Source of the DNA: Pseudopelagicola sp.
GTDB taxonomy: Bacteria; Pseudomonadota; Alphaproteobacteria; Rhodobacterales; Rhodobacteraceae
NCBI GenBank assembly: GCA_026195905.1
Contig: JAPHRE010000039.1
Location: 50,351 to 114,350 of the forward strand
Length of the DNA: 64,000 nucleotides
Direction of reading: 5' to 3'
The notes beneath the pieces are model-generated. The model was not told where the DNA came from, did no database searches, and saw nothing but the letters and a program-made list of their open reading frames with translations. Shown piece by piece: positions 10,617 through 58,526 of this stretch. A program made the position numbers and the translations under genes. Position 1 is the first letter of the stretch. Each line of letters opens with the position of its first letter.

Positions 10617-10717
10617 GGGTCTTTCCCCTCATCTATCGTGTTGGCCCCTATATGGCCCCTATGATCCAAGGTGCCAACCCGTAGGGTGGGTTTTCACCCC
10701 ACCAACCCTCGGAATCC

Positions 10718-10767
10718 CGCACCACCGCGATACAGACGCAATACCGACGCGATACAGACCCGCGTTT
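10718..10767 (+). repeat. 50-bp 11-mer-array intergenic repeat, copy A
   Basis: cgcaccaccg|cgatacagacg|caataccgacg|cgatacagacc|cgcgttt; abuts the xthA stop codon. Confidence 0.9.
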
Positions 10768-11556
10768 CTAAACATCAAACGTCGCAAAAACCGGCGCGTG
10801 ATCCGAGGGTTTTTCCCATCCCCGCGCCGCCCGAAGAACCCGGCTGCCATGCCCCGCGTTGGAAATATCCGGCGTCGCCCAGACATGATCGAGCCGCCGC
10901 CCCTTATCCGCCGCATCCCAATCCTTGGCGCGGTAAGACCACCAGCTATAAAGCTGCCCCGCGGGGATATCCTGTCGCGTGATATCGACCCAACTGCCCG
11001 CATCCTGGGCCTGGGCAAGCTGTTCAACCTCAACCGGCGTATGGCTCACCACCTTCAAAAGCTGCTTGTGGTTCCAAACATCATCCTCGCGCGGCGCGAT
11101 GTTCAAGTCCCCGACAAGAATAGATTTTTCCGGCTTTTCGCCATGAAACCAATCGCGCATCTCGGTCAGGTAATCGAGCTTCTGGCCGAACTTCTCGTTG
11201 ATCTCGCGATCCGGCTTGTCGCCGCCTGCCGGGACATAGAAATTCTGGATCGTAACCCCGTTTTCAAGCCGCCCCGCGACGTGCCGCGCATGGCCGAGCG
11301 TGGCAAAATCCTGGTCGCCCGCATCTTCCATCGGAATCTTCGACAGGATCGCAACCCCGTTATATCCCTTCTGTCCCCGCGCCACAATGTAATGATAGCC
11401 AAGCGCCTTGAACCCCTCTAGCGGGATCTTTTCAACCGGGCTTTTACACTCCTGCAAACAAAGCACATCCGGCGCTTCTTCTTGAAGCAATTTCAATACG
11501 ATAGGCTCTCGAAGCCGCACCGAGTTGATATTCCATGTGGCAAGGGTAAAGGCCAT
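10768..11556 (-). CDS. xthA: Exodeoxyribonuclease III
   Basis: 'MAFTLATWNINSVRLREPIVLKLLQEEAPDVLCLQECK', 'VGDLNIAPREDDVWNHK', 'RLDHVWATPDI', 'PSDHAPVFATF'. Confidence 0.95.
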   Translation of the reverse strand: MAFTLATWNINSVRLREPIVLKLLQEEAPDVLCLQECKSPVEKIPLEGFKALGYHYIVARGQKGYNGVAILSKIPMEDAGDQDFATLGHARHVAGRLENGVTIQNFYVPAGGDKPDREINEKFGQKLDYLTEMRDWFHGEKPEKSILVGDLNIAPREDDVWNHKQLLKVVSHTPVEVEQLAQAQDAGSWVDITRQDIPAGQLYSWWSYRAKDWDAADKGRRLDHVWATPDISNAGHGSRVLRAARGWEKPSDHAPVFATFDV

Positions 11557-12366: not shown

Positions 12367-12393
12367 AAAAAAGGCCCGGACAAAATCCGGGCC
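12367..12393 (-). terminator. Candidate intrinsic terminator for the response regulator gene
   Basis: Minus-strand GGCCCGGATTTTGTCCGGGCCTTTTTTT: perfect stem followed by a T tract. Confidence 0.6.
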
Positions 12394-12552
12394 AAGTCCA
12401 ACAGGGAGGTGCATGTCATAACCCCGACATGCAAGGGAACTTGACCCCTAGTGTTAAAGAGTCATGCAATCCGCGACTTTGACCCAGATCAACGCAATAA
12501 TCTTTCCGGTTCAAACCTCGTATCGTCCTTTCATACCCCGCGCTGCGGTGCC

Positions 12553-23916: not shown

Positions 23917-23927
23917 CGGGCAAAATC

Positions 23928-23977
23928 CGCACCGACGCAATACCGACGTTATACAGACGCAATACCGACGTGGGTTT
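23928..23977 (+). repeat. 50-bp 11-mer-array intergenic repeat, copy B
   Basis: cgcaccgacg|caataccgacg|ttatacagacg|caataccgacg|tgggttt; overlaps the last codons of the flavoprotein gene. Confidence 0.9.
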
Positions 23978-25130
23978 TTTGGGCAAAACGGGCCGCATGC
24001 TGCCCCGCCCAAAGCCCCGTCGCAAAGCAGGCTGTAAGGAGGTAGCCCCCCGTCGGTGCCTCCCAGTCAAGCATCTCGCCCGCCGCGAAAACCCCCGGCA
24101 TATCGCGTATCATAAGCCCCGCATCAAGCGCCTCGAACCGGACGCCGCCCGCCGTTGAAATCGCCTCATCCATTGGGCGCGGCCCTTGGTGATGGATTGG
24201 CAAGGCTTTGAGAATATGGCCAAAATCGTCGGGCAAAGGCCGTGCAAACTCCATCAAGAGCGCCTGTTTCACAGGGTCCAGTTTAAGCGCCTTGCGCAGG
24301 TGATTGCCAAGGCTGGCCTTGCCCCGTGGCCGCGCAAGCCGGGCGCGAATATCAGCCTCGGAAAGGTCCGGCAGCAGGTCGAGGAAAAGCGGCGCGCCCT
24401 CGCGCATCTCGCGCGACACGGCATAAATGCCACCGCCTTCAACCCCTTGGGAAGAAATGATAAATTCTCCCAGAACCGCGGTGTTTCCTGCCTTCAGTCG
24501 CACATTCTTGACCGGCGCGCCAAAGTGCTTTTCCATATGCGGCGACCACGCGACCACAAAGCCCATATTCGCAGGCTGAAACCGCGCCAGCGGCACATCA
24601 AGCACCCCGGCCCACGCCCCATCCGACCCAAGCCGCGCCCAACTCGCCCCGCCACAGGCCAGCACCGTAACATCCGGCGTCAGAACCTGTCGCCCCTCCG
24701 GTGTCTCAAAGACAAACCCGTCCTCAAGGCCCACCCAACGCCACCGCGTCCGCAGTTCCACGCCCTGCGCCCCAAGCCGCCCAAGCCACGCCCGCAAGAG
24801 CGGTGAGGCCTTCATGGATTTTGGGAAAACCCGCCCCGAAGACCCGGTGAACATCTCCTGTCCAAGCCCTTGCGCCCAAGCGGAAACGGCCTCTGGTCCG
24901 AACGCCTCAAGCATCGGGCGCAGCATCGACTCCGCCGCGCCATACGCCTCCATAAACGTTTGAAACCGCTCGTCTTTTGTAAGATTAAGCCCGGATTTCC
25001 CCGCCATCAAAAACTTGCGCGCGACGCTCGGTTTCGCCTCGGCGACAACAACGGATAGCCCTGCCGCCGACAAGGCCTCTGCTGCCATCAACCCCGCCGG
25101 GCCGCCGCCTATGACAAGTGCGGATGTCAT
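23949..25130 (-). CDS. HI0933-like NAD(P)/FAD-dependent flavoprotein (TIGR03862-type)
   Basis: 'MTSALVIGGGPAGLMAAEALSAAGLSVVVAEAKPSVARKFLMAGKSGLNLT', 'AGEMLDWEAPTGGYLLTACFATGLWAG'. Confidence 0.92.
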   Translation of the reverse strand: MTSALVIGGGPAGLMAAEALSAAGLSVVVAEAKPSVARKFLMAGKSGLNLTKDERFQTFMEAYGAAESMLRPMLEAFGPEAVSAWAQGLGQEMFTGSSGRVFPKSMKASPLLRAWLGRLGAQGVELRTRWRWVGLEDGFVFETPEGRQVLTPDVTVLACGGASWARLGSDGAWAGVLDVPLARFQPANMGFVVAWSPHMEKHFGAPVKNVRLKAGNTAVLGEFIISSQGVEGGGIYAVSREMREGAPLFLDLLPDLSEADIRARLARPRGKASLGNHLRKALKLDPVKQALLMEFARPLPDDFGHILKALPIHHQGPRPMDEAISTAGGVRFEALDAGLMIRDMPGVFAAGEMLDWEAPTGGYLLTACFATGLWAGQHAARFAQKTHVGIASV

Positions 25131-55580: not shown

Positions 55581-56348
55581 ATGCAAAGCCCCATGCGCCT
55601 CGTCACCCTTGAAAACCTCACTGTCCGCCTTGGCGGTCATACTGCGCTGTCCGAGGTCGACTTTCATATCGACAAGGGCGAGATCGTCACGGTTGTCGGC
55701 CCCAATGGCTCGGGCAAGACGACTCTGCTCAAGGCGATCATCGGCGCGGTCAAACCCCGCAGCGGCACCCTCAAACATGCCGACGGGTTGCGGATTGGCT
55801 ACGTGCCCCAACGCCTCGCCATCGACACCACCTTGCCGCTGACCGTGCGCCGCTTCCTCTGCCTGCCCCACCGCCATGCAGAGCCAACCCTGCAAGAGGC
55901 GCTCAAAAACGCCGGCGCCGATGGCCTGATAGAACGCCAGATGACCGCCCTCTCCGGTGGTCAATTCCAACGCGTCCTCCTCGCCCGCGCCATCCTTGAA
56001 AAGCCCGACCTTCTGATCCTTGACGAACCGACCACCGGCCTGGATCAACCCGGCTCCGCCGCGCTCTACCGCCAAATCGAAAAGGTGCGCCGCGACCTCG
56101 GAAGCGCCGTTCTCATGGTCAGCCACGAACTCCACGTTGTCATGAGCGCCTCCGACCGCGTTATCTGCCTTAACGGTCATGTCTGTTGCCACGGCGCGCC
56201 AGAGATCGTCGCCGACGCACCGGAATATCGCGCCCTCTTCGGCTCCGGCACCCAAGGCGCGCTCGCGCTCTACCGCCACGATCATGACCACCATCATCAT
56301 GGCCATCCGGCCCATAGCCACGAACATGGGGACTGCGACCATGCTTGA
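55581..56348 (+). CDS. znuC: Zinc ABC transporter ATP-binding protein ZnuC
   Basis: 'VVGPNGSGKTTLLKAII' Walker A, 'LSGGQFQRVLLARAIL' signature, 'LLILDEPTTGLD' Walker B; His-rich C-terminus. Confidence 0.95.
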   Translation: MQSPMRLVTLENLTVRLGGHTALSEVDFHIDKGEIVTVVGPNGSGKTTLLKAIIGAVKPRSGTLKHADGLRIGYVPQRLAIDTTLPLTVRRFLCLPHRHAEPTLQEALKNAGADGLIERQMTALSGGQFQRVLLARAILEKPDLLILDEPTTGLDQPGSAALYRQIEKVRRDLGSAVLMVSHELHVVMSASDRVICLNGHVCCHGAPEIVADAPEYRALFGSGTQGALALYRHDHDHHHHGHPAHSHEHGDCDHA

Positions 56349-57132
56349 CGATTTCATGATCCGCGCCACGCTCGCGGGCTTCGGCGTCGCCATCGCCGCC
56401 GCGCCGCTTGGCTGTTTCGTGGTCTGGCGGCGCATGGCCTATTTCGGCGACGCCACCGCCCATGCCGCGATCCTTGGCGTGGCCCTGTCGCTGGCGCTCT
56501 CAACCTCGGTGTTTGCTGGCGCGCTGGCCGTGGCGCTCGCGATGGCGCTGACGGTTTCAACGCTCTCGGGACGCGGTTTTGCAATGGATACGCTGTTGGG
56601 TGTGCTGGCCCATTCGGCGCTCGCCTTCGGCCTTGTCTCTGTGTCCTTCCTGCAAGGGATACGCCTTGACCTTGATGCCTATCTCTTTGGCGATATCCTT
56701 GCGGTGAACAAATCCGACCTTGCGGTGATATGGTCCGGGGCGGCGTTGGTGCTTCTGCTGACCCTCTGGCGCTGGTCGCCGCTTCTGACCGCAACGCTCA
56801 ATCCTGACCTCGCCCATGCGTCCGGCATTGATCCCAAGCGCGAACAACTCGTCCTGACCCTCGGCCTCGCCATCGTCGTCGCCGTGGCGATCAAGATCGT
56901 CGGCGCGCTCTTGATCGTGGCGCTGCTGATCATCCCCGCCGCCGCTGCCCGCCCCCTCGCGCGCACCCCGGAACAAATGGCGTTCTCAGCCGCCGTGATC
57001 GGAGCCGCCGCCGCCGTTGGCGGACTGCGCCTCTCGTTTCTCTTTGATACACCCTCAGGGCCAACCATCGTCTGCACGGCCTCGGTGCTCTTCGCGATCA
57101 CCGCCGTATCGTCGCGCTTCATCCCGCGTTAA
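56341..57132 (+). CDS. znuB: Zinc ABC transporter permease ZnuB
   Basis: ATG at 56341 overlaps the end of znuC by 8 bp. 'GCFVVWRRMAYFGDATAHAAILGVALSLALS', ABC-3 family TM pattern. Confidence 0.95.
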   Translation: MLDDFMIRATLAGFGVAIAAAPLGCFVVWRRMAYFGDATAHAAILGVALSLALSTSVFAGALAVALAMALTVSTLSGRGFAMDTLLGVLAHSALAFGLVSVSFLQGIRLDLDAYLFGDILAVNKSDLAVIWSGAALVLLLTLWRWSPLLTATLNPDLAHASGIDPKREQLVLTLGLAIVVAVAIKIVGALLIVALLIIPAAAARPLARTPEQMAFSAAVIGAAAAVGGLRLSFLFDTPSGPTIVCTASVLFAITAVSSRFIPR

Positions 57133-57154
57133 CATTTCGCCCTGTGGCAAACCC

Positions 57155-57204
57155 CGCACCGACGCGATACAGACGCAATACCGACGTGATACCGACGTGC
57201 GTTT
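57155..57204 (+). repeat. 50-bp 11-mer-array intergenic repeat, copy C
   Basis: cgcaccgacg|cgatacagacg|caataccgacg|tgataccgacg|tgcgttt; between the convergent znuB and serine hydrolase genes. Confidence 0.9.
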
Positions 57205-57213
57205 TGGCGTTAA

Positions 57214-57286
57214 GACTCTTCTTCTCTGTGGCAAATACTCCGGGGTGAATTGCCCCGGTTTTCGAGGCTAGAGGGGCAGCGCCCCT
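57214..57286 (+). repeat. CTCTTCTTCTCTGT-AAATAC box plus two palindromes, copy 4
   Basis: gactcttcttctctgtggcaaatactcc, then ccggggtgaattgccccgg and aggggcagcgcccct. Confidence 0.8.
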
Positions 57287-58526
57287 ACCCCACCATCGCC
57301 GCATGAACCAGCGCCTTCATCTCGGCCCGCGCCGGATAGCTGCTCGACGGCGACAACTGGGTCAGGAACACCACGCTCAACCCCGTTTCCCGGTCCACCC
57401 AGAAAAAGGTCGAGGCCATCCCGCCCCAGCTGAAATCGCCGACCGATCCCGGCACCCGCGCCCGCGCCGCATCAAGCACCACCGCGCCCCCAAGACCAAA
57501 GCCCATGCCCTCCATCGGCTGTTCGGCAAAGCTCTGCGGTCCCATCTCTGCAATCTCCCCACGAAGGTGGTTTTGCATCATGAAATCAACGGTTTGCGGT
57601 GACAAAAGGCGCACGCCCTCAATGGCACCGCCGCGGCGCAACATTTCGGCAAACCGCATATAGTCGTCGATCGTCCCCACAAGGCCGCCCCCACCCGAGA
57701 ACATATCCGCGTTGAGGAATGGCGAGCCGTCCTTGTGATCGACCCGACGCAGCGGGTTTTCCCCCGTCTGCGCCGCATTCAGCGCCATCGCATCCCCCGC
57801 CAGCGGCGTATAGAGCGAAGCAAACCGCTCAATCGCCTGTTTCGGAACGGAAAATGCGGTTTCCATCATGCCAAGCGGCTCAAGGATCTCGGCCTTGAAA
57901 AACGTCTCAAGCGACTGCCCCGAGATCACCTCGACCACCCGTCCCAACACGTCAATCGCGACCGAGTATTCCCACCGCGTCCCCGGCTGAAACGCCAACG
58001 GCAACCCCGCCACCCGGTCCACCATTTCGGCCAATAACCCTTGGTTGGCGCGAAAGATCAGATCCTCTTTTTCCATCGCCGCCGCCAATACGCCGGGGTT
58101 GAACGGATAGCTCAGGCCCGCCGTATGCGTAAGAAGCTGATGCAAGGTCGGGGAGGGCGCGGCTTCGGTCTCTTCAATCGACATCGCACCGGGAATAAGC
58201 GCCCGCATGTCCTTGAAAGACGGGATAAATTCGCTCACCGGCGTATCGAGCGTAAAAAGCCCCCGCTCGTAAAGCATCATCAACGCGACCGAGGTCACGG
58301 GTTTGGTCATCGAATAAAGTCGCGCCACCGTATCGCGCTCGAACCGGGCGTCGCTCTCGATATCGCGGCGGCCTGTGGCGTGAAAATACGCCTCCTCGCC
58401 GTGACGCGCGATAAGGAGACTACTGCCGGGAAACTTCCGCGCCGCGACATAGCCATCCATCCAGTCCCCAATCCGGCCAAGCCGTTCGGGATCAAATCCA
58501 AGCCGTGCGGCCTCCCCCGTGATCAT
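57285..58526 (-). CDS. Serine hydrolase, beta-lactamase/esterase family
   Basis: 'DTVARLYSMTKPVTSVALMMLYERG' (SxxK), 'WEYSVAIDVLGRVVEVISGQSLETF' (YxV/N region). Confidence 0.9.
   Translation of the reverse strand: MITGEAARLGFDPERLGRIGDWMDGYVAARKFPGSSLLIARHGEEAYFHATGRRDIESDARFERDTVARLYSMTKPVTSVALMMLYERGLFTLDTPVSEFIPSFKDMRALIPGAMSIEETEAAPSPTLHQLLTHTAGLSYPFNPGVLAAAMEKEDLIFRANQGLLAEMVDRVAGLPLAFQPGTRWEYSVAIDVLGRVVEVISGQSLETFFKAEILEPLGMMETAFSVPKQAIERFASLYTPLAGDAMALNAAQTGENPLRRVDHKDGSPFLNADMFSGGGGLVGTIDDYMRFAEMLRRGGAIEGVRLLSPQTVDFMMQNHLRGEIAEMGPQSFAEQPMEGMGFGLGGAVVLDAARARVPGSVGDFSWGGMASTFFWVDRETGLSVVFLTQLSPSSSYPARAEMKALVHAAMVG

Follow-up and report, generated by a model that had tools for sequence, protein, structure and literature searches.

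Known replication-polar signals are either short, as are the octamers of KOPS (FtsK orienting polar sequences) and AIMS (Architecture IMparting Sequences), or confined to the terminus, as are the Ter sites of Tus-Ter fork traps. AIMS are strand-biased, degenerate octamers, inferred to be under selection, which occur in thousands of copies with a terminus gradient (PMC5993296). The element considered here, a 56-bp intergenic four-unit module, resembles KOPS in being dispersed, non-palindromic, replication-oriented and potentially readable in one direction by a tracking machine; KOPS are, however, 8-bp G-rich octamers, and the GGGNAGGG-type KOPS octamer is absent from the element consensus. Strand bias and inferred selection are common to the element and AIMS, but the element is a long, sparse module whose gradient is not established. 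Tus-Ter offers a plausible mode of action in the form of a polar, protein-bound site, although Ter sites cluster at the terminus while copies of the element are spread along the chromosome. Like REP/REPIN sequences, the element numbers roughly 100 short copies in intergenic DNA, close to gene 3' ends; it differs from them in its lack of a palindromic core, its strong replication polarity and its phased 11-bp units. It looks like an undescribed directional chromosome signal in Shimia and other marine roseobacters.

Three copies occur in the window, i.e. the whole stretch of 64,000 nucleotides that was analysed (Table 1). A preliminary description had placed copy A at 10718–10767, with a sequence that we recovered exactly, and had given the same length and layout to copies B (23928–23977) and C (57155–57204), which is correct. 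Copy A does lie directly against the xthA stop codon, as was stated, the stop of this minus-strand exonuclease III gene falling at 10768–10770. The layout of a separate leader followed by three 11-mers holds in part: the three 11-mers are present, whereas the leader proves to be a first unit that has diverged (CGCACCGACGC, CGCACCACCGC or CGCACTGTCGC), so that each element comprises four 11-mers, stretched to approximately 56 bp by flanking AAAA/TTTT tracts. That the repeat exceeds sequence noise is also upheld, since a unit pair with at most three mismatches matched eight times in the window, always inside copies A, B or C, and not once in 100 dinucleotide shuffles of it.

Table 1. Copies of the element (56-bp register) and long-form boxes in the window.
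Feature	Position	Strand	Sequence or context
Copy A	10713..10768	+	AATCC CGCACCACCGC GATACAGACGC AATACCGACGC GATACAGACCC GCGTTTC; adjoins the stop of an exonuclease III (xthA-like) gene on the minus strand
Copy B	23923..23978	+	Flanked by convergent GST-like and HI0933-like genes; extends into the HI0933-like C-terminus
Copy C	57150..57205	+	Between convergent ABC-3 permease and beta-lactamase-family genes
Long-form GTTAAC box on the upstream side of copy C	57128..57133		Shares bases with the permease stop codon
Long-form GTTAA(G) box on the downstream side of copy C	57209..57214		Kept in G022

The same three places are occupied in related genomes: that of copy A in G022 (S. aestuarii AMM-P-2) and G020, that of copy B in G022, G020 and G001, and that of copy C, with the orthologous copy in the same orientation, in G022. 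The HI0933-like gene whose C-terminus copy B overlaps is on the minus strand (23949–25130), and at 23949–23977 its last codons and stop are supplied by the copy itself in the genome under study (G000); the orthologous element likewise ends this protein in G022 and G020. A different intergenic repeat was observed at 57228–57290 (aaatactccggggtgaattg...gaggggcagcgcccct), and sequence resembling it fills the copy-B position in many Shimia in which the element is missing. An Rfam scan of the window found no curated family at the element, the only matches being a tRNA and SorX, a singlet-oxygen resistance RNA at 12367–12439 on the minus strand (RF02784, 84 bits).

An ungapped register over 84 distinct loci extracted from G000 yielded the consensus AAAnC CGCACCGACGC RATACMGACGC AATACCGACGY GATACMGAC..YGTTTT, in which the first unit, U1, has the variants CGCACCACCGC and CGCACTGTCGC, the following three units are U2 to U4, and the trailer ends in GTTTT. 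Within the units the positions ATAC.GACG are near-invariant, with a constant 11-bp phase. The number of units in Shimia is essentially fixed at four, which a tandem repeat prone to slippage would not show; the element is a 56-bp module and not a free tandem array. In P. spongiae a variant with GTTCA-type early units occurs. A long form additionally carries GTTAAC boxes at fixed offsets (-21/-18, +60/61 and +72) and a GANTC site, GTTAAC being enriched 16-fold next to elements relative to the rest of the intergenic DNA. Many copies in other genera follow the order CGCACGCCCTGTTAACC - array - GTTTT - GTTAACC - GANTCG, and 29 of 48 copies have GANTC after the downstream box, compared with 3 of 63 controls. 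Since CcrM acts at GANTC and TTAA boxes are reminiscent of CtrA, the long form may have some connection with these or similar cell-cycle factors.

Searching beyond the window, as the preliminary description had proposed, expands the picture considerably. In G000, a Shimia genome (3.06 Mb, 80 contigs), the unit pair matched 227 times with at most two mismatches, corresponding to about 110 loci, while the reversed pattern, used as a control, did not match. With approximately 110 copies here and relatives in many genera of the Rhodobacteraceae, the three copies of the window are neither alone in their genome nor without kin, and no described family was found to which they belong, a search of open-access papers having turned up none that prints the unit pair. 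Counting G000, the element occurs in 22 of 25 Shimia species. The remaining three (G005, G008 and G012) had zero copies even by a relaxed phased-ATAC pattern, ruling out a mere change of unit sequence. A first sample of other genera contained no copies, but a wider scan located the element in several, among them Roseovarius, Pseudooceanicola, Thalassovita and Salinihabitans, and a sequence profile search of 396 genomes of the family was positive in 36, representing 35 of 364 genera. Plasmid or phage origin was rejected, as blastn against plasmids and phages returned no match, with the caveat that its low-complexity filter could hide matches. The unit pair was seen on three viral contigs (L144, L145 and L146), of which L145 alone has a full-looking element, possibly in host flank.

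Copies are rarely placed between divergent promoters, and convergent gene pairs around them are in excess. Among 77 G000 copies with context, the flanking genes were convergent in 23 cases, tandem in 47 and divergent in 5, and the remaining 2 copies fell inside called genes, counts which are approximate because the gene caller misses some genes, such as the Pfam-supported permease (56179–57132) at copy C. The median distance to gene 3' ends is 15–46 bp. Together with the convergent-pair excess, the AAAA/TTTT ends and the imperfect inverted repeat that the element ends form, this placement might be taken to indicate a signal for RNA 3'-end processing or for transcription termination in both directions, and the preliminary description had raised a structured RNA 3' end. 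The latter suggestion is not supported: as RNA or DNA, on either strand, the element shows no more folding than shuffled sequence, and its terminal inverted repeat pairs at 61.5%, against 60.4% after shuffling, with no covariation. An intrinsic terminator, i.e. a GC hairpin followed by a U tract, was rejected for want of such a fold and of covariation, and because at an sRNA-like locus described below the element lies beyond a separate, conserved hairpin terminator. As the orientation of the element is, moreover, independent of gene direction, we regard any termination or processing role as very improbable.

A local regulatory site of the neighbouring genes, such as a repressor or CtrA-type operator, would account for the GTTAAC and GANTC motifs near the long form and for those copies situated 60–120 bp upstream of genes. 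Yet only 5 of 75 copies are found between divergent genes, many others are flanked by convergent genes and so have no promoter beside them, and regulation does not predict the replication polarity detailed below. This explanation, too, appears very improbable to us.

The property that the preliminary description missed is replication-strand polarity. Copies on the same contig tend to share orientation, and in G000 orientation correlates with local GC skew (r=-0.81, n=61, p=1e-15) and with third-codon skew taken as the mean of the two gene strands (r=-0.83), while bearing no relation to net gene direction. In an independent set of 109 loci from other genera the correlation with GC skew is r=-0.83 (p=3e-28, 93% agreement), and r is about -0.82 across three data sets. 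Where |skew| exceeds 0.06, 47 of 50 copies in G000 and 68 of 70 in other genera agree, i.e. 115 of 120. Gene direction is excluded as the cause by partial correlation: with its effect removed, and across window sizes, partial r is -0.83 to -0.85 in G000, -0.82 to -0.84 in the other genera and -0.82 to -0.84 in G022/G023. The KOPS octamer GGGCAGGG, our positive control, gave -0.66 to -0.69. A strong replication-strand polarity, as is a feature of KOPS, is thus present in the element, and in the same genome it surpasses that of GGGCAGGG (partial r=-0.84 vs -0.68). The KOPS-type GGGCAGGG is itself strongly strand-skewed in G000 (81:8 in 0.9 Mb), and since it exists there separately and the sequences differ, identity of the element with KOPS was rejected. 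The consensus is read on the C-rich strand, and on the customary interpretation of GC skew it would point toward the origin.

Long assemblies illustrate this behaviour. For example, one S. aestuarii contig spans 1.57 Mb, and over its first 0.94 Mb each of the 20 listed copies is in the plus orientation and skew is uniformly negative, whereas gene direction ranges from 7 to 100%; beyond 0.94 Mb, skew and orientation are both mixed. In P. spongiae, where skew is patchy, the two flip together 9 kb apart. Along its chromosome (NZ_CP045201, L307–L326) the sign of GC skew changes over approximately 10 kb with element orientation following, which suggests many small inversions; flipped elements persist with their segment, and misorientation is therefore tolerated. 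Copy positions in this species look evenly spread on inspection. Contrary to expectation, two clean arms were not seen in the closed chromosomes G301:C1 (27 plus and 33 minus copies) and G355:C1 (18 plus and 4 minus). The three wrong-way copies in G000 are only slightly more degenerate (p=0.02), and their small number does not allow selection on polarity itself to be proved.

Conservation of position provides a second line of evidence. At orthologous intergenic places compared between G000 and G022 or G020, the element is kept in the same orientation in 7 of 8 cases and, in the reversed comparison, in 6 of 6, so that 13 of 14 tests retain it. Invariant positions of orthologous copies are 96% identical and flanks 74%, a comparison in which pattern detection favours conserved copies. 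At the sRNA-like locus, nearly all Shimia species possess the element, always in the same orientation, with a column identity of 0.73 compared with 0.15–0.19 in the flanks; it lies beyond the hairpin terminator, which is also conserved. Some copies there are degenerate, G012 retains a decayed remnant only, and G005 and G008 have nothing. The sRNA-like segment itself (L345 1186–1361, with orthologues L346–L368) is conserved and non-coding, ends in the hairpin terminator and has a full-length but weak, sub-threshold match to the Caulobacter sRNA CC2171 (E=6e-4). The element is, on these grounds, a selected, replication-polar module.

Both loss and gain have occurred within the genus. In a two-gene tree G005, G008 and G012 are nested inside element-bearing lineages (the place of G008 with low support), from which it follows that the genus ancestor had elements and that some lineages lost all of them, as expected if the copies depend on a trans-acting factor. 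Conversely, the site beside xthA is occupied in G000, G022 and G020 only; new sites thus arise within Shimia, and some copying mechanism is required.

This requirement brings in the main rival, in which the element is small, mobile and non-autonomous and enters the single-stranded lagging-strand template at forks, in the manner of IS200/IS605, with polarity as a by-product and some copies later kept for other reasons. The dispersed copies with their subfamilies, the clade-specific gain beside xthA, a gene-3'-end placement resembling that of other tolerated repeats and the patchy presence across genera are all in keeping with it, and lagging-strand insertion bias would yield polarity independent of gene direction. 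Several observations speak against it. Firstly, the Y1 RAYT/TnpA-REP transposase (PF01797) was not detected in the copy-rich G000, G022, G023, G013, G020 and G001, the E. coli control being positive; this absence, with that of a hairpin-forming core, is also why a REP/REPIN-RAYT system was rejected. Secondly, there is no hairpin, and clean empty sites or target duplications were not seen at the loci of copies A, B and C. Thirdly, orthologous copies are under selection, and a polarity of 115 in 120 is very high for insertion bias alone. We consider this rival rather unlikely. Both processes may nevertheless hold, insertion accounting for spread and selection for retention.

We favour, with a probability of roughly 55%, a selected, directional DNA site whose likeliest role is to signal polarity to a tracking machine, which it would guide, load or stop, presumably through a bound protein. 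The near-invariant ATAC.GACG, the fixed 11-bp phase and the selection across species keep the one-face protein-binding array of the preliminary description the best idea for its design, binding itself being putative. Side-by-side protein occupancy of the four 11-bp units on one helix face would create a complex whose two ends differ. With the consensus on the C-rich strand, machinery tracking from origin to terminus would always meet this complex from the same side, and the fork, a translocase or a loop extruder are candidates for such machinery. A fork trap of the Tus-Ter type was rejected, Tus (PF05472) being absent from all 25 Shimia genomes while the E. coli control was positive.

More speculatively, such a directional site could belong to a chromosome-polarity system of marine Rhodobacteraceae in which a protein on approximately 100 intergenic sites per genome acts as a one-way gate, or as a loader, for the fork or a segregation motor under CcrM/CtrA timing, and in which loss of the protein leads to loss of all sites; we advance this only as a tentative possibility. 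The zero-copy Shimia species, sitting inside the element-bearing tree, offer a clean genetic test. A long, modular, intergenic polar site with genus-wide positional conservation and lineage-wide loss would point to an unrecognised direction-reading machine.
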